Below are positions 2,540 to 18,120 of a stretch of 20,813 nt of DNA, piece by piece. The stretch comes from a virus. The notes beneath the pieces are model-generated. The model was not told where the DNA came from, ran no database searches, and saw only the letters and a list, made by a program, of their open reading frames with translations. The stretch lies in the IMG/VR virus record IMGVR_UViG_3300009504_000045, positions 1 to 20,813 of that record; one strand, given 5' to 3'. The position numbers were made by a program, and so were the translations under genes. Numbering within the stretch: position 1 is the first letter of the stretch; each line of letters starts with the position of its first letter.

Positions 2540-4399
2540 TTACCTGGTCATAGTCAAACGGATGATTGCGCCGACTTGGGCGGCTGAGAGGGTTGGGGTG
2601 GGTGGTCCCTCATCAGAGGGAACAAATAGAGCACTAACTCCCATAACGGTGCTGCCGTGGAACCTTGACCAAACAACACCCCCATCGACTTCGACATACT
2701 TGTAGTGGGTAGTCGAATCGACATTGGCTGCTCCAAAGTAAAGGTATTCTTTGGAGACCTTAACGGCCATGCCTTGTGCGGCGTGTACCGCAGACCAAAT
2801 CGGAGTACCATCAGTGTCGAGCTTGCGGACATTAAAATTGCCAACACTTGTTGGATACCCACAGATGTACATGTATCCATCTCTAACATCAGGTTTGCCC
2901 ATAGGTGATGCTCCGTGGTCCTTGGACCATAATGGGTCACCGTCTGCATCGAGTTTGCGGTGGGTTACGCTGCTAACGCGTACACCATCAATGTATGCAT
3001 GACCATCTTCGACTGCTACTCCGAGGATGTTGTGCCCGTGGTCTTTGCTCCATATTGGGTCACCGTCTACGTCAAGTTTGCGGTGGCTTATACTGTCTTG
3101 CCTAAAGCAGGCCAGATACATGTGGCTATCTTCGACTGCCACACCCCTAACGCCGTCACCGTGGTCTTTGCTCCATATTGGGTCGCCGTCTTTATCCAGC
3201 TTGCGGTGAGTATAATACGGGTCGCTTCCTGCACGCATACCGCCAATGTAGACATATTCATCCTCAACTGCAAGACCCATAACGGTGTTGCCGTGGTCCT
3301 TTGACCAGACTATGGTTCCCTCAGAGTCAAGTTTACGATGAGAGACGCTGCTGGCACGTTCTCCCCAGATGTAGACGTTATCGACCTGAGCATCGATACC
3401 ATACAAAGTGGCACCGTGGTTCTTAGACCAAATAGGGTCGCCATCTTCTTCGAGCATCCGATGTGTTATGCCGCTGGCCGCTATACCAGCTATGTAGGAA
3501 TAGTGTCGTCCCGATTCAGGTATGGTCTCGACTGAGACTCCCCACACAGTGGCTTCGTGGTCCTTGGACCAAATAGGGTCGCCGTCTACACCAAGTTTGC
3601 GGTGGGAATAGTATGGGTCACTTCCTGCACGGTCACCACCGATGTATGCGTGACCGTAGTCGACTGCGATAGTGTATACAACAATCCCGTGGTCCTTAGA
3701 CCATATTGGGTCGCCGTCTACGTCAAGTTTGCGGTGGGTTAGGTTGCTTATACGTGAGCCACCGATGTAGGCGCGACCATATTCTACCGTGATAGTGCGC
3801 ACACTTGCCCCGTGGTCCTTGGACCAAATAGGGTCACCGTCTACGTCAAGTTTGTGGTGGGTTAGGTCGCTTTCGCGGTCGCTGCCAATGTATGCGTAGC
3901 CATCTTCGACTGCGATGCCGTTTACGTAGTCCCCGTAGTCCTTGGACCATATTGGGTCGCCGTCTACGTCAAGTTTGCGGACGCTTACGCTGCTGGTACG
4001 CCGACCACTGATGTATGCATGACCATCTTCAACCGCGATGCCGTATACAGTGGACCCGTGGGCCTTAGTCCATATTGGGTCACCGTCTACGTCAAGTTTG
4101 CGGTGGCTTGCGGATACGCCTACACCTCCGATGTAGGCGTAGCCATCTTCGACTGCGATAGTGTATACAATATTCCCGTGGTCCTTGGACCATATTGGGT
4201 CGCCGTCTGAATCTAGCTTACGATGAGTTACGCTGCTGATACGTGTGCCAGCGATGTATGCGTAGCCATCTTCAACTGCGATGCCATACACGATGCCCCC
4301 GTGGTCCTTGGACCAAATAGGGTCACCGTCTTTATCCAGCTTGTGGTGGCTTATGTTGCTGATACGTTCGCCACCTATGTAGATAAACGGCCCAGACAC
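2540..4399 (-). CDS. 14-unit beta-propeller-like repeat protein, putative receptor-binding or fibre-associated
   Basis: The 619-residue protein starts at GTG 4399, eight bases past the TGA of the upstream gene. It is almost wholly made of about 14 units of 40-47 residues, each of the form KLDVDGDPIWSKDHG, then V.GIAVEDGYAYIGG and a variable stretch ending THR. The pattern resembles PQQ-like or SBBP-type beta-propeller blades (WSK near one strand, AYIGG in the next). The 14th unit lacks its YIGG strand, while the N-terminus begins with a free FIYIGGERIS strand, as expected if the ends meet in one blade (velcro closure). Most units contain DxDGD, a possible calcium-binding or tight-turn loop. 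Fourteen blades would fit two seven-bladed propellers or one large ring. The last 25 or so residues (TPTLSAAQVGAIIRLTM) lie outside the repeats. No signal peptide or catalytic motif is seen. Its place between a carbohydrate-binding-like gene and the giant fibre suggests a virion adhesin; the function is inferred. Confidence 0.85.
   Translation of the reverse strand: MSGPFIYIGGERISNISHHKLDKDGDPIWSKDHGGIVYGIAVEDGYAYIAGTRISSVTHRKLDSDGDPIWSKDHGNIVYTIAVEDGYAYIGGVGVSASHRKLDVDGDPIWTKAHGSTVYGIAVEDGHAYISGRRTSSVSVRKLDVDGDPIWSKDYGDYVNGIAVEDGYAYIGSDRESDLTHHKLDVDGDPIWSKDHGASVRTITVEYGRAYIGGSRISNLTHRKLDVDGDPIWSKDHGIVVYTIAVDYGHAYIGGDRAGSDPYYSHRKLGVDGDPIWSKDHEATVWGVSVETIPESGRHYSYIAGIAASGITHRMLEEDGDPIWSKNHGATLYGIDAQVDNVYIWGERASSVSHRKLDSEGTIVWSKDHGNTVMGLAVEDEYVYIGGMRAGSDPYYTHRKLDKDGDPIWSKDHGDGVRGVAVEDSHMYLACFRQDSISHRKLDVDGDPIWSKDHGHNILGVAVEDGHAYIDGVRVSSVTHRKLDADGDPLWSKDHGASPMGKPDVRDGYMYICGYPTSVGNFNVRKLDTDGTPIWSAVHAAQGMAVKVSKEYLYFGAANVDSTTHYKYVEVDGGVVWSRFHGSTVMGVSALFVPSDEGPPTPTLSAAQVGAIIRLTMTR
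2620..4342 (-). repeat. Tandem array of about 14 coding units of about 123 bp (propeller blades)
   Basis: On the plus strand the unit is recognised by recurring text close to ccatattgggtcgccgtcta followed by cgtcaagtttgcggtggg. Most units are 123 bp (41 codons). Longer ones occur where PYYSHR, PYYTHR or an ETIPESGRHYS insertion is encoded. The central units are the most alike in DNA, and the last three before the stop are the most diverged. Confidence 0.9.
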
Positions 4400-4404
4400 T
4401 TAGC

Positions 4405-5037
4405 TCACCACTCTTTTTCCCAGCCGTACACCCCTGGTTCCCAATTATTTGCGTCCACTATGGACACCCACACGAAGCCCTGGTGAATCACCCTTGCTCC
4501 TAGAGCATAGGAGTCATGTGCCCCTAGTGGCTGGACCCACTCATCAATCACGCCTTCGGGGGTGCGCAGCTTGAACAGCGCAGGCACCTCTGGAGGCTCC
4601 CAGCCCACCTGTGCCGTGTGCGCCTGGATGCACTCGTATAGCACATGGGCATACACGCACACCTCGCCGACCACATACGCCTTGCCAGCCGTCCAGGGCG
4701 GGTGCTGGTGAATGGCTATTTGCTTGAGCCGCCCCATCTCCACCATCAGGTCGGCCATGATTTCCTCCTGGGTTAGCGGCCTATCATACTGCTCCCAGAA
4801 CAGCTCCTCCGTCGAAACGGTCAGCATGAGCCTGTTATTCTTGCCCTTGACCAGTGCAGGAGCCGCCGGAATAGCCGACTCCTCCACAATCAGCCCCTTA
4901 GTTGATAACTCCTCTAGCTCAGCTTCGGTAGCATCCTCAACCTTGTAGTATTTGCCGTCTGCCCGTTGAAACTTGTGGATACGCCCATCTACCCAGGCCG
5001 TGTCCTCGGTTACCATCTGATACGTAAGTAGGACCAA
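4405..5037 (-). CDS. Tail-tip protein with two C-terminal chitin-binding-like (CBM5/12) modules
   Basis: The 210-residue protein appears to start at TTG 5037: a stop codon lies one codon further upstream, and a GGAGGGGGG ribosome site ends eight bases before the TTG. ATG 5016 (MVTEDTAW) is an alternative start with worse spacing. Residues about 115-157 (PPWTAGKAYVVGEVCVYAHV, then YEC and a Trp) and 167-210 (WVQPLGAHDSYALGARVIHQ, then FVWVS) both show the aromatic W....Y..G..V...G..Y/W pattern of CBM5/12 (ChtBD3) modules, which bind chitin-like or peptidoglycan-like glycans. The central part (about 75-110) looks helical. I infer a glycan-binding accessory on the virion, acting with the propeller and fibre genes downstream. 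The module assignment is by pattern only. Confidence 0.75.
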   Translation of the reverse strand: MVLLTYQMVTEDTAWVDGRIHKFQRADGKYYKVEDATEAELEELSTKGLIVEESAIPAAPALVKGKNNRLMLTVSTEELFWEQYDRPLTQEEIMADLMVEMGRLKQIAIHQHPPWTAGKAYVVGEVCVYAHVLYECIQAHTAQVGWEPPEVPALFKLRTPEGVIDEWVQPLGAHDSYALGARVIHQGFVWVSIVDANNWEPGVYGWEKEW

Positions 5038-5453: not shown

Positions 5454-5765
5454 CTACTTAACCTCCTCTTTGATAATCCCAAATCTAGTGGCTCCCTGGT
5501 GCGTCAGGACCGCAAAAGCAGCCACAATGATGCCGTTGATGACGCTTAGATAGACGGTCTCGCCCCAGTTGATGTCTACTCCGCCGCGTACCGCCGTGCC
5601 CACAAAGAGCAGTAGAGCCCCAAGGCCCCAGGCGTACAGCAGGGTCGGTAGCTTAGCGATTACGGGCAGCTCCTTGGTGGCCTGTACAATGAGGAACAGG
5701 ACCACGCCCATGACCCCGAGGGTCAGTGACTCTGATAGCGTCAGAAACTCGGTCGGCAGATTCAC
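5454..5765 (-). CDS. Putative holin with three membrane segments
   Basis: The 103-residue protein starts at GTG 5765 with a strong AAGGAGG seven bases upstream; it lies 15 bases after the amidase. Three hydrophobic stretches are visible: about 14-30 (LTLGVMGVVLFLIVQ), 39-58 (LPTLLYAWGLGALLLFVGTA) and 70-88 (TVYLSVINGIIVAAFAVL). They are followed by a short charged tail (KEEVK). Small size, three membrane segments and position directly after a peptidoglycan amidase fit a class I-type holin that permeabilises the cytoplasmic membrane at the end of infection. Sequence family not identified; the call rests on topology and context. Confidence 0.75.
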   Translation of the reverse strand: MNLPTEFLTLSESLTLGVMGVVLFLIVQATKELPVIAKLPTLLYAWGLGALLLFVGTAVRGGVDINWGETVYLSVINGIIVAAFAVLTHQGATRFGIIKEEVK

Positions 5766-5780
5766 GTTCTAACCTCCTTG

Positions 5781-6458
5781 CTACTGCCAGCATCTTACCA
5801 GCTCAGCGATGCTTTGCAGCCTGCCTTGCAGGTCCGTTAGGTTCTGATGACACCCGCCCAGGTCATCATACAACCGCGACACGTCATCACCGCTCCAGGT
5901 CAACACCCCCCGTGCTATAGCGTGTGCCAGAGCAAAACGGCCCCAGAAGTTGCCCATCACCGCTGCGTCAGCAGCGTTAGTGATGAAACCCAGCTCTACC
6001 AGCACCGCAGGTATGCCCCGCTTTCGGGGTTCATTAACTACATAATAGAAGTCCTCGCCATCATCGCGCAACCGGGTCAGGACTGGTATGGGCCGTGGGG
6101 GTATTTGAGGTACGCGGTTTGTGAGCTCACGCGAGATGCTCTCGCCCAGTTTTCGGGACTCGGGGAGGTAAGCACTGACGAACACCTCGTGCCCCCGGGC
6201 TGAGCTACTCACCGCCGCGTTGGCATGTATACTAATCACGCAGGTAGACGGCTTGATAATCGCCGCCGTCCGGTTCGCTGGCAGGAGTAGAACATCCTGG
6301 GTCCGGGTCAACGAGACATTGACATCGAGGGACCGGATAGCCGCCGCACACAACTGCCCTACCGCCAACACAACATCGGATTCGTACAGCCCGTTTCCCA
6401 CAGCTCCGGGGTCCGGACCGCCATGTCCGGGGTCGATGCACACTAGGTTCGGGGCCAC
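5781..6458 (-). CDS. Phage endolysin: N-acetylmuramoyl-L-alanine amidase (Amidase_3 type)
   Basis: It cleaves the amide bond between N-acetylmuramic acid and L-alanine in peptidoglycan. I chose GTG 6458 (MAPNLVCIDPGHGG); the frame stays open to GTG 6488, and a third GTG overlaps the upstream stop as TAGTG at 6443. None has a strong ribosome site, which suggests translation coupled to the peptidase gene. With the 6458 start (225 residues) the zinc-ligand and catalytic residues of the family are all visible: His12 (DPGHGG), Glu26 (LYESD), His78 (SIHAN) and Glu155 (LVELGF). There is no signal peptide and no recognisable wall-binding domain. The last 35 residues (LYDDLGGCHQNLTDLQGRLQ) look helical and could mediate oligomerisation or targeting. 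It sits between the C1A peptidase and the holin, as expected for a lysis cassette. Confidence 0.9.
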   Translation of the reverse strand: MAPNLVCIDPGHGGPDPGAVGNGLYESDVVLAVGQLCAAAIRSLDVNVSLTRTQDVLLLPANRTAAIIKPSTCVISIHANAAVSSSARGHEVFVSAYLPESRKLGESISRELTNRVPQIPPRPIPVLTRLRDDGEDFYYVVNEPRKRGIPAVLVELGFITNAADAAVMGNFWGRFALAHAIARGVLTWSGDDVSRLYDDLGGCHQNLTDLQGRLQSIAELVRCWQ

Positions 6459-7456
6459 GGCTTGTTCACCAACTTTGCGTCGAACCACATTTTAGCTGGC
6501 CATTTCGGGTGGTCGGGCAGGTATTTTCCCCAAGCTACTATCTCGCCGCCGAGAGCTTCTATTATGTGTCGCATCGAGGCCACAAAACGATGACCACCTG
6601 GTACGTCAGCCAAATAAGGTGCCAAGTCGACCGCAGGGAGTGGTTGCCCATCCCGGTACATCACTGGGTCTCCCTCAATGACGATAAGTCTGGTCTCCTG
6701 CACGGTGGGCTGGTCAACAGTGGTCCAACATTCGACTATAGGATATGACCACGGGATGTAGCAGTAGCCTGGCAGGTGCCGCCCATCCGGCAGGTTTACG
6801 CCCGGACCCCAACCTTGCCCCCAGCTATTCGGCACCACCCACAAGCTGCGGAGATATGCTAGACTGGGCATCATGTGGTATCCCACAAGGTTGCCGGATG
6901 GATACGGTATCACACCATCCGAATCTGGCCGGAAGTTTGTGTGTATGGGCACCCCCAGCAGTATGCCGGACCTGGAGTACACAGCCGATTTTGCCTCGGG
7001 GATGAATCTCGGGTCGACCGCCGTGTAGGAGCCTATACGATGTGGTAACGCTGCCCGCAACACCTCCTCAAATGGGTTCGGCTCAGTCTCTGAGCCCCGC
7101 TCATCGTTGCCCGGCCAGTATATCTCTGGGGGAGCCCCATACCGCCGCAGAGTGTTTAGGTGCTCCCGGGGCACCACACCTTTACCCTGCCAGAAATACG
7201 CACTGGGCCTGTAGTGATACGCAAAGTTTCGGCTTAGCCGCACCGGGTATCCTAGCTCGTCTTGCTCTTGGAGCTCTCGGACCATCATCGAACTGAACGC
7301 AACACACGAAGCCACGGCTCCTTGGTCCTCAACAGGTGGCAGGTATTCCGGCAGGTATTCGTCTGGTAGCTCATCGGTGCTGTACATCTCGCCGTAATGG
7401 GCGTATTGATAATCTCGCTGGTCCACTGGTGACGGTATCATGCCCATCTCAGGCAC
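6443..7456 (-). CDS. Papain-like C1A cysteine peptidase with C-terminal copper-amine-oxidase-N-like stalk domain
   Basis: The 337-residue protein starts at GTG 7456 with AAGGAGG seven bases upstream. The papain triad is visible: Gln45 and Cys51 (PVEDQGAVASCVAF), His194 (NLVGYHMMPSL) and Asn210 (VVPNSWGQGWG). The first Cys of the usual papain SCGSC motif is absent (AVASC), as in many bacterial members. Residues about 256-312 (LIVIEGDPVMYRDGQPLPAV, then HRFVASMRHIIEALGGEIVA) follow the pattern of copper amine oxidase N-terminal (PF07833-like) domains, which are frequent on Firmicutes surface proteins. No signal peptide or propeptide is evident. Placement in front of the amidase, with membrane-protein genes on both sides, suggests a role in host exit (cutting wall peptides or an S-layer protein) or a tail-borne protease. 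The peptidase fold is well supported, its substrate is not. Confidence 0.85.
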   Translation of the reverse strand: MPEMGMIPSPVDQRDYQYAHYGEMYSTDELPDEYLPEYLPPVEDQGAVASCVAFSSMMVRELQEQDELGYPVRLSRNFAYHYRPSAYFWQGKGVVPREHLNTLRRYGAPPEIYWPGNDERGSETEPNPFEEVLRAALPHRIGSYTAVDPRFIPEAKSAVYSRSGILLGVPIHTNFRPDSDGVIPYPSGNLVGYHMMPSLAYLRSLWVVPNSWGQGWGPGVNLPDGRHLPGYCYIPWSYPIVECWTTVDQPTVQETRLIVIEGDPVMYRDGQPLPAVDLAPYLADVPGGHRFVASMRHIIEALGGEIVAWGKYLPDHPKWPAKMWFDAKLVNKPWPRT

Positions 7457-7468
7457 ATTCGCACCTCC

Positions 7469-7750
7469 TTAAGGTATCCAGCCCATGACCTTGCTAATGG
7501 AGAGAAACACGGTTGCCACTATGCCAGCTATCGCACCACTGGTCACCCGACCCCACCACTGTTTCCGGGAGTTTTGTTGTTCGGAAATCTTCCGCTCTAG
7601 TTTTTGGAGAGCTGCGTGATTAGCACTTAACAGAGCCAACGAAATACGGCACAGCTCCGGTGGGTTTATGCCGTTGAGTATACTAATCAGCTCACGGCTT
7701 TCGGGCCCTTTGCTGCTAAGTACCAGTTTTAACAGCTCATCTGTGCTCAT
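7469..7750 (-). CDS. Small coiled-coil/C-terminal membrane protein, holin-accessory (XhlA-like) candidate
   Basis: The 93-residue protein starts at ATG 7750 with AGGAGG six bases upstream. Residues about 35-65 (LALLSANHAALQKLERKISE) look like an amphipathic or coiled-coil helix. One membrane segment follows at about 70-90 (VTSGAIAGIVATVFLSISKV). This helix-then-membrane layout and size resemble XhlA-type proteins that act with holins. The gene is the first of the lysis-like cassette, 12 bases ahead of the peptidase. It could instead be an antiholin or a membrane anchor for tail proteins. I see no specific family motif. Confidence 0.65.
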   Translation of the reverse strand: MSTDELLKLVLSSKGPESRELISILNGINPPELCRISLALLSANHAALQKLERKISEQQNSRKQWWGRVTSGAIAGIVATVFLSISKVMGWIP

Positions 7751-15941: not shown

Positions 15942-16604
15942 CTACAGGTGGGTGACCTTGCTGGCCGGAGTCTCGGTCCGGTTCCGCAGGTCGGCGAACG
16001 CACCGACCTCTTTGGCACGATTAAAGTCTGCCAGCCCAAACTCATACATCCCCACGTGCCCAATCGGTATAGTCGTGTCGCAAATAGCCGGGATACCAGC
16101 CTTTTTAACCCTGGTGAAGAAGCTGATATCCTCAGCCGCTCCCCATTCTGATAGCCCGAACCACGGCTGCGGAATCTGCTCGAACACCTCACGCCGGATA
16201 AGTAGGCAGGCGCATCCCGCCGCATCAATGGGCTGGATTTCCTCCCACTCTGTCAGGTTGCGAATGGTGTTCATATCGTCATCATCGGCCTTGTAGATTG
16301 TCGGCCTGGGTGGCCACTGCCGCTTAAAGGCCAGCCCAGACACTATCGGAGCATCGTGCGCCAGCAGCTTCTTTAGTGTGTCCGGCGGAAACGTCATGTC
16401 GCTGTCGATGAAGAACAGCCACTCATATTTGCCGTCTAGACAGTTGCGGGCCGCAGTCTCCCGGGCAATATGGGTCCAGTGATACGCAATCCACAGTGTT
16501 GCCGGGTTACCTATCTCGTGAAACGTGGTCATCAGGTAACAAAACGACTGCATAAACTGCGTTGGCACCGTGCCCATGTGCGGTATGGCTATCAGGCCAG
16601 CCAT
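15942..16604 (-). CDS. GT-A fold glycosyltransferase (second of cassette)
   Basis: The 220-residue protein starts at ATG 16604, overlapping the methyltransferase stop by one base (TGATG). A DSD motif at residues 67-69 (WLFFIDSDMTFPP) sits after a strand in the position of the nucleotide-sugar/metal-binding DxD of GT-A enzymes. Further on are a G-[AC]-A-C-L-L-I-R segment (AAGCACLLIRREVF) and an acidic pair (GAAEDISFFTRVKKAG) matching the acceptor/catalytic region of GT2-like enzymes. It would transfer a sugar from a nucleotide-sugar to an unknown acceptor. No membrane segment, so it is probably cytoplasmic. It is in the same operon as virion genes, so a virion protein or a host surface glycan are both possible acceptors. 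Confidence 0.8.
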   Translation of the reverse strand: MAGLIAIPHMGTVPTQFMQSFCYLMTTFHEIGNPATLWIAYHWTHIARETAARNCLDGKYEWLFFIDSDMTFPPDTLKKLLAHDAPIVSGLAFKRQWPPRPTIYKADDDDMNTIRNLTEWEEIQPIDAAGCACLLIRREVFEQIPQPWFGLSEWGAAEDISFFTRVKKAGIPAICDTTIPIGHVGMYEFGLADFNRAKEVGAFADLRNRTETPASKVTHL

Positions 16605-17395
16605 CAGAGTTTTGCACTCCCCAAGTGCATCAGTACATGGGCCTCAAACGGGATGTTCTCCAGGTCGCTGAGTTTCCGGTGTCCGATTGTACCGTCCATA
16701 GACAGGTAGTGGAATGTGGCCCCCTTGTCCGCATACTGGTGCAGTAGCTTGTACAGGGGCTTAAAGTCCTTGCCGAGAACATCGGGGTTCCACTCAAATA
16801 TCACGTTCTTGGTACGTTTCAGAGTTTCGGTCGCGCCTTTGAGCACCCGGTATTCCGAGCCCTCAGTGTCTATCTTGATAATGTCGAAGTTACCCTCAAG
16901 AACCGCGTCCAAGGTTGTGCATGAGACCTTTTGGACATGCTTCTCCTCATGTTCGAGGGTTCCGTAGTAGCCGTGCAGGCTGGCCCCGGACTCCTCGCCC
17001 GTGGTCCAGTAAATCTCACGTTCCTCCACCTTGTCACCGACCGCTTGCTCGAACACCTCGACCGTATGTCCCTGTAGCTTGGTGACGTAGTTGCAGCTCA
17101 GGTTGAGTCGCAAAAACTCCAGAGTCCGAGGCATGGGCTCGAACGCTGCCACATAGCCTGTCGGCCCCACAACCCGAGCCATCAGTACAGTGAAATACCC
17201 GACCTGTGCTCCTACATCGACCATCCGAGCCCCCTTGAACTGGCCTTTAGCAAGCCAGTTGGTCAAGCAGGGCTCGTGGTAACCACGTGTAGCCACCAAT
17301 GGCATGACGTGGATATCTTCTGCCGGGTAAAACAACCGCGCTCCGTACTGGGTATTGGTCAGCACTCTGCCGTTACCTACGTAAGCACCGTACAT
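16604..17395 (-). CDS. FkbM-family SAM-dependent methyltransferase
   Basis: I chose ATG 17395 (263 residues): GGGGGG lies nine bases upstream, and a longer frame to 17527 would cover 151 bases of the glycosyltransferase with a non-natural N-terminus. The SAM motif is at residues 60-66 (VDVGAQVGYF). The FkbM signature is at about 172-189 (IIKIDTEGSEYRVLKGA). The expected FEP (AAFEPMPRTLEFLRLN) and later FEWNP elements are also present. FkbM enzymes are O-methyltransferases often acting on sugars, which fits its position between two glycosyltransferases: it may methylate the sugar they add. It overlaps the upstream gene by 19 bases and the downstream one by one base, a tight translation unit. 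Confidence 0.88.
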   Translation of the reverse strand: MYGAYVGNGRVLTNTQYGARLFYPAEDIHVMPLVATRGYHEPCLTNWLAKGQFKGARMVDVGAQVGYFTVLMARVVGPTGYVAAFEPMPRTLEFLRLNLSCNYVTKLQGHTVEVFEQAVGDKVEEREIYWTTGEESGASLHGYYGTLEHEEKHVQKVSCTTLDAVLEGNFDIIKIDTEGSEYRVLKGATETLKRTKNVIFEWNPDVLGKDFKPLYKLLHQYADKGATFHYLSMDGTIGHRKLSDLENIPFEAHVLMHLGSAKL

Positions 17396-18120
17396 TTGTA
17401 CTTGCCCCCCTTGGTGGATTCGATGTCGCTGGGTCGGTACAAGTGCTGCGCCGGATACGTGGTCTCCAACCATATCTCGTATCCGTGTACCGCCGCCCGC
17501 ACACAGAAATGCCTGTCCTCTCCCCAAAAGGACAGGTTTGGCACCCTATCGTAATTTATCCCCTGCTCCAACACCCTGCGATGTACCAGGATGCAAGCCC
17601 CGGACATCCCCACCCGGTAGAGCCCTGGCTGTTTCCACCGCTCCAAACTACCCTCAAAAAAGGACCAATGGTCCATATCCCAGGCGTTTGGAGCAGGTTC
17701 AGAGTCCGGGTTCCATTTGGTCCAGAACACATTGGCCACAATGTCCTTTTGTGCGTCGAGTAGCTGTATCAAGGTCCTGGGATGCAGCAAAAGGTCGGAG
17801 TCCGCCAAGAAAAAGTAGTCGTGCCCCTGTAGTATAGTGTGTTTTAGCAGGGCGTTCTTCATCAAGGTGACTTCCCGGATGTGGCTCGTGGTCCAGTGGT
17901 GGGTTGTCTCGTCAACTTGATAATCTGTGGTGCGGGTCTCGTTGTGCAGTGCAAAGCACTCACCTGGCCGAAGTTGTTTGGCCAGGTGTGCAGAGTTGTG
18001 CAGAATGAACAGGGTCTCTACCTGCACCCCATCCGGCACAACCAAACCCCGCAGACTCTCCAAGTACAGCGCAAATACATGCGGGTCCTGTCGCACGGGT
18101 GCGCCTATCAGTATCCGCAT
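17377..18120 (-). CDS. GT-A fold glycosyltransferase (first of cassette)
   Basis: The 247-residue protein starts at ATG 18120, three bases past the upstream stop. The fold is visible as MRILIGAPVRQDPHVFALYL (first strand and helix), a DSD motif at 107-109 (YFFLADSDLLLHP), then GMSGACILVHRRVLEQG and an acidic WGEDRHFC near residue 205. This is the same plan as the second glycosyltransferase of the cassette (GACILVHRRV compares with GCACLLIRRE), so the two may be distant paralogues. It lacks membrane segments. Probably it begins or extends the sugar made by the cassette. The donor and acceptor cannot be read from the sequence. Confidence 0.8.
   Translation of the reverse strand: MRILIGAPVRQDPHVFALYLESLRGLVVPDGVQVETLFILHNSAHLAKQLRPGECFALHNETRTTDYQVDETTHHWTTSHIREVTLMKNALLKHTILQGHDYFFLADSDLLLHPRTLIQLLDAQKDIVANVFWTKWNPDSEPAPNAWDMDHWSFFEGSLERWKQPGLYRVGMSGACILVHRRVLEQGINYDRVPNLSFWGEDRHFCVRAAVHGYEIWLETTYPAQHLYRPSDIESTKGGKYKCTVLT

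Follow-up and report, generated by a model that had tools for sequence, protein, structure and literature searches.

The window analysed here is the whole stretch of 20,813 nucleotides of the viral record IMGVR_UViG_3300009504_000045. Four genes follow one another on its minus strand: a 93-aa ORF with a membrane segment, a C1A peptidase, an Amidase_3 endolysin and a 103-aa multi-span ORF (Table 1). The peptidase ORF occurs as a single copy in the record, and its ribosome-binding site (AAGGAGGT) lies 6 nt upstream of the GTG start. The overlap of the amidase with the peptidase gene is 46 nt from the listed start and 16 nt from an alternative GTG at 6458. The family matches of the two holin-like ORFs are weak, the 93-aa ORF matching a holin PHROG at E 0.089 only. 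An earlier note on this DNA had placed the peptidase in a lysis-like cassette, and this holds: the amidase gene overlaps the stop of the peptidase gene, and small transmembrane ORFs flank the pair. As far as gene content tells, the presence of a holin-like gene and of a peptidoglycan hydrolase beside the peptidase gene makes this locus a lysis cassette, as it does in the related viral contig L041.

Table 1. Features of the peptidase locus in the window (positions of the window, all on the minus strand)
Feature	Position	Strand	Remarks
C1A papain-type (xylellain-like) peptidase gene	6443..7456	-	337 aa, GTG start, stop included
Catalytic domain, residues 1-248	6713..7456	-	Gln45/Cys51/His194/Asn210; N-terminal 'PSPxDxRD' motif at residues 8-15
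Divergent Cu_amine_oxidN1-like (PF07833) domain, residues ~253-319	6500..6700	-	tail HMM and L041 homology
N-acetylmuramoyl-L-alanine amidase (Amidase_3), endolysin	5781..6488	-	PF01520, E 1.6e-34
93-aa ORF, C-terminal transmembrane segment, XhlA/holin-like by layout	7469..7750	-	hydropathy; family matches weak
103-aa multi-transmembrane ORF, likely holin by position	5454..5765	-	hydropathy; post-amidase place as in L041

The peptidase matches the PHROG family phrog_16701 'peptidase' over residues 5-218 (E 1.6e-13). Its score against the Pfam family Peptidase_C1 (PF00112), 19.0-20.3 bits, is just below the cut-off of 20.7, which close relatives exceed, and its best PDB match by phmmer is Ervatamin-C (2e-5). 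The AlphaFold2 model has a pLDDT that is mostly above 90 over the catalytic domain, and its best fold match is xylellain, 3ois (Z 26.9, 2.5 A over 233 residues, 24% identity; Foldseek E 4e-16), followed by procathepsins and papains, with Cwp84 (4ci7) at Z 21.8. The modelled protein thus has the papain-like fold of family C1A, xylellain type. The Gln oxyanion residue and the Cys-His-Asn triad occur in the C1A order, with an NSWG motif at residues 210-213. None of the 79 aligned viral relatives departs from the Cys, the His, the Asn or Trp212, and 78 of them keep the Gln, a conservation which, judged from the alignment, far exceeds chance. The four catalytic residues are numbered exactly as the earlier note had them, and the homologues with mutated catalytic residues that it had named as a counter-argument are not what the relatives show. 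We therefore predict, from the fold and the intact catalytic residues, that the product of the gene is an active C1A endopeptidase. A chance ORF or a pseudogene is ruled out by the ribosome-binding site, the profile matches, the invariant residues and the high-confidence model. The hydropathy profile of the protein reveals neither a signal peptide nor a transmembrane segment, and its N-terminus has no hydrophobic stretch.

The C-terminal tail (residues 250-337) lies in a low-confidence region of the model and does not reach the profile cut-off of PF07833 in Pfam. We consider that it is a divergent member of this family by homology, because the tail of the L041 peptidase, a close relative, matches PF07833 with E 1e-12 (48.4 bits), because an HMM built from the tails of six relatives, with the window sequence excluded, assigns 13.7 bits to the window tail and no more than 10.3 to any of 2000 shuffles, and because a D, a P and two R residues of the tail are invariant across the seven sequences. 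The copper-amine-oxidase-N-like tail that had been proposed from the sequence is therefore retained, as a divergent version of that domain. The amidase of the window carries no wall-binding-type tail of this sort. Among the entries of BFVD that match the peptidase model are an 'N acetylmuramidase' fragment and a phage protein that bears the name 'Copper amine oxidase'.

It took alignment searches of viral contigs to reveal the relatives. Searches of viral and genome collections with the single peptidase sequence gave no relative, and an alignment search of genome contigs gave none that was confirmed. The amidase and the tape measure protein of the window resemble mostly those of Bacillota phages; no close named relative of the window phage was found, and the sequences of two relatives by major capsid protein (L113 and L114) end short of the lysis region.

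The L041 peptidase is 40% identical to that of the window over the catalytic domain, and 37% overall. Its surroundings reproduce the same four-gene order: a transmembrane ORF, a C1A peptidase with a PF07833 tail, an overlapping Amidase_3 gene, and an ORF that matches a holin PHROG (2.7e-5). Beyond the window, a C1A gene lies at most two genes from a peptidoglycan hydrolase of one of four types in at least nine distinct phages or viral contigs. The partner is an Amidase_3 in L041 and L054, an Amidase_2 in L065, L082, L112, L078 and L126, a glucosaminidase with an SLH domain in L047, and a GH25 lysozyme in Thermoanaerobacterium phage THSA-485A, where the lysozyme gene is directly followed by the C1A gene and then by an ORF of a holin PHROG. 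In three more contigs the C1A domain is fused to a hydrolase: a single protein combines C1A, choline-binding repeats and a phage lysozyme in L014 and L020, the fusion gene of L014 being placed right after a Hol44 holin, and C1A is fused to Peptidase_M15_3 in L139. The peptidase-amidase pair, which the earlier note had suggested looking for in other phages, does recur, in the case of L041 with the whole cassette and the tail. This partnership in many unrelated phages suggests that the C1A enzyme is a second, little-noticed tool for exit from the host cell.

One candidate partner was left out of the count, the gene at position +3 from the C1A gene in L060, which is NlpC/P60-like by eye and has no Pfam match. 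In L132 (414-2574), a GH25 gene and a transmembrane ORF are accompanied by a C1A frame that is interrupted by in-frame TAG, TAG and TAA codons at 1840, 1927 and 2164; this may be either a decayed copy or the gene of a recoded phage.

The peptidase of the window belongs to a well-supported clade of 18 rows (99/97), which includes the C1A protein of THSA-485A. When the genes within two positions of the C1A gene are tallied, a hydrolase belonging to one of the 25 families that are most frequent in the tally is adjacent or fused in 10/26 cases in group A (8 adjacent, 2 fused) and in 2/27 cases in group B, a sample of the other half of the C1A tree (Fisher p 0.009), a comparison that is supporting and not decisive because the two groups are split along the weakly supported deepest node, because the groups were fixed when part of the neighbourhoods was already known, and because each tally is confined to 25 families.

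The domains appended to the peptidase also vary. The position of the window tail is occupied in relatives by wall-binding-type modules: SPOR in L011 and L078, SLH in L126, and choline-binding repeats in L014 and L020. In L112 and L065, PF07833 is over the cut-off on both the C1A peptidase and the adjacent amidase (the match of the L082 amidase to this family is weak). A short C-terminal domain is common to the lysozyme and the peptidase of THSA-485A, with a score that none of 20,000 shuffles reached. The C1A proteins of L047 and L054 are 81% identical and their neighbouring hydrolases differ; the C1A gene therefore keeps its place while its partner changes. That anchors and partners are swapped around a constant C1A domain argues, on the basis of these comparisons, for a distinct function of the peptidase in lysis. 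The SLH domains of the L126 peptidase and of the L047 partner hydrolase point to hosts that probably use SLH-type surface anchoring, and lend the conjectured S-layer target no more than indirect support. Only the pairs L014/L020 (0.34/1.08) and L007/L009 gave a usable dN/dS, the other pairs being saturated.

The family is not exclusively lytic, since in some large phages of the window's clade (L007 and L059 among them) the C1A homologue is embedded among tail and baseplate genes, with no adjoining endolysin. The peptidase gene of the window is itself directly downstream of tail genes, so that one may think of a virion- or tail-associated protease, used for entry or for the processing of tail proteins. 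We find this improbable for the window peptidase, considering that a holin and an endolysin are co-located with C1A in the window, L041, L054, L112, THSA-485A and L014, that wall-binding-type tails are common to the peptidase and the endolysin, and that the L014, L020 and L139 proteins are fused to lytic domains. The homologues of L007 (6971-7738) and L059 (6992-7792) end in basic, amphipathic-looking stretches.

Many phages have xylellain-type C1A genes without any lysis neighbour (group B), and the window peptidase lacks a signal peptide, as would be the case for an intracellular effector or anti-defence protease; the enzyme might also destroy receptors on debris, its position near the lysis genes being due to chance in either case. 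This we hold to be very unlikely: repeated fusion or pairing with several unrelated hydrolase families, together with wall-binding-type tails, is unexpected for a cytoplasmic effector, although the destruction of receptors on debris may still occur and overlaps with the explanation in terms of an auxiliary lysis enzyme.

We favor, with a probability of about 0.72, the conclusion that the window peptidase is an auxiliary lysis enzyme, which is released together with the amidase, becomes anchored to the wall and cuts a protein of the envelope. It would be expressed late, from one operon with the holin-like protein and the Amidase_3 endolysin, and, since it has no signal peptide, it would remain cytoplasmic up to the opening of the membrane by the holin. 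Both enzymes would then exit through the holin lesion, and the peptidase would bind the envelope via its Cu_amine_oxidN1-like tail, as the interchangeable wall-binding-type tails of its relatives suggest, and cleave a protein barrier that is beyond the reach of the amidase. Since the enzymes of family C1A are protein endopeptidases, the likeliest substrate would be an S-layer or another wall-attached protein; peptide bonds of peptidoglycan would be less likely.

If the peptidase did cut peptidoglycan peptides directly, it would be a true second endolysin domain, like CHAP, NlpC/P60 and C39-like domains. The stem peptides of peptidoglycan contain many D-residues, and C1A enzymes do not normally cut these; the fold match and the set of residues are those of ordinary C1A protein endopeptidases (xylellain, cathepsins, Cwp84), not those of CHAP or NlpC enzymes. 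Two relatives outside lysis cassettes adjoin a chagasin-type inhibitor of C1A enzymes, which fits general proteolysis. We therefore regard the direct cleavage of peptidoglycan as unlikely, even if the fusions with a phage lysozyme or an M15 peptidase and the pairing with single-activity amidases resemble multi-domain endolysins, and even if mycobacteriophage Lysin A offers a precedent with its papain-superfamily N5 domains (PMC3314691). As for the inhibitors, the C1A gene is directly followed by a gene of the chagasin family I42 in the viral contig L143 (4983-6172; PF09394, E 1.4e-13), and by an annotated gene of that family in L115, the Priestia megaterium plasmid NZ_CP085450.1 (5983-7177); judging from their position, these neighbours may form enzyme-inhibitor pairs.

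The presence of xylellain-type C1A peptidases in phages is already known: such enzymes occur in bacteria and in Caudoviricetes and, according to the consulted portion of PMC10380794, were horizontally acquired by Myoviridae and Siphoviridae, and that portion assigns them no lysis role. Xylellain (3OIS), the best fold match of the window peptidase, covers its catalytic domain completely, N-terminal stretch included, and has an equal set of residues, but the window protein differs from this type by its Cu_amine_oxidN1-like tail and its location in a lysis cassette. Tsac_2838 of THSA-485A, annotated as 'peptidase C1A papain' (AFK87691.1), is in the same clade and adjoins a lysozyme and a holin-PHROG gene; unlike in the window, the partner is a GH25 enzyme and not an Amidase_3, and the tail is another short domain, which the lysozyme also has. 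Cwp84 (PMC4414356, PMC4089489) shares the C1A fold and is a protease of the envelope to which a binding-type domain has been added, which makes it a model for the class of substrate that we propose; it is, on the contrary, a secreted cellular enzyme with a propeptide and a lectin-like domain, and its kinship with the window peptidase is at the level of the fold. The N5 domains of Lysin A likewise combine a papain-superfamily peptidase with an amidase or a glycosidase for phage lysis, but they are C39-like and part of one multidomain polypeptide, whereas the peptidases described here are of type C1A and mostly encoded by a separate gene. In the open-access literature, we found no paper that describes a lysis cassette with a C1A peptidase, nor a tested lysis role or substrate for any enzyme of the clade of the window peptidase.

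Phage lysis is usually described as the breaching of the membrane and of the peptidoglycan (and of the outer membrane in Gram-negatives). To our knowledge, there is little discussion of how a phage clears the coat at exit when its host is S-layered or heavily protein-coated, and we know of no standard list of endolysin domains that includes C1A-type lysis-associated enzymes. We propose tentatively, as a generalization whose chances we put at somewhat less than even, that many phages use a two-enzyme exit, in which a peptidoglycan hydrolase is accompanied by a dedicated C1A endopeptidase with a matching wall-binding tail, and this endopeptidase clears the S-layer or wall-protein coat, against which the hydrolase is powerless. 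The recurrence of the peptidase points to a class of lysis-associated protein endopeptidases, and the fact that it sometimes shares the anchor of the endolysin or is fused to it makes protein-coat clearance at exit a testable idea.

Last, we note some other genes on the minus strand of the window. Just downstream of the cassette, 4405-5037 codes for a 210-aa protein with a chitin-type CBM_5_12 module (7.4e-16), and 2540-4399 for a 619-aa protein made of HRKLDxDGDPIWSKDHG units, which matches a beta-propeller PHROG family (8.4e-35). At 2-2527, an ORF that runs off the end of the contig encodes a large, glycine-rich protein in which a unit of about 20 residues (STVHIDTEGSG...) recurs dozens of times nearly unchanged. 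Between the head and tail genes (15942-18120), three consecutive ORFs resemble by eye a glycosyltransferase, an FkbM-type methyltransferase and a glycosyltransferase.
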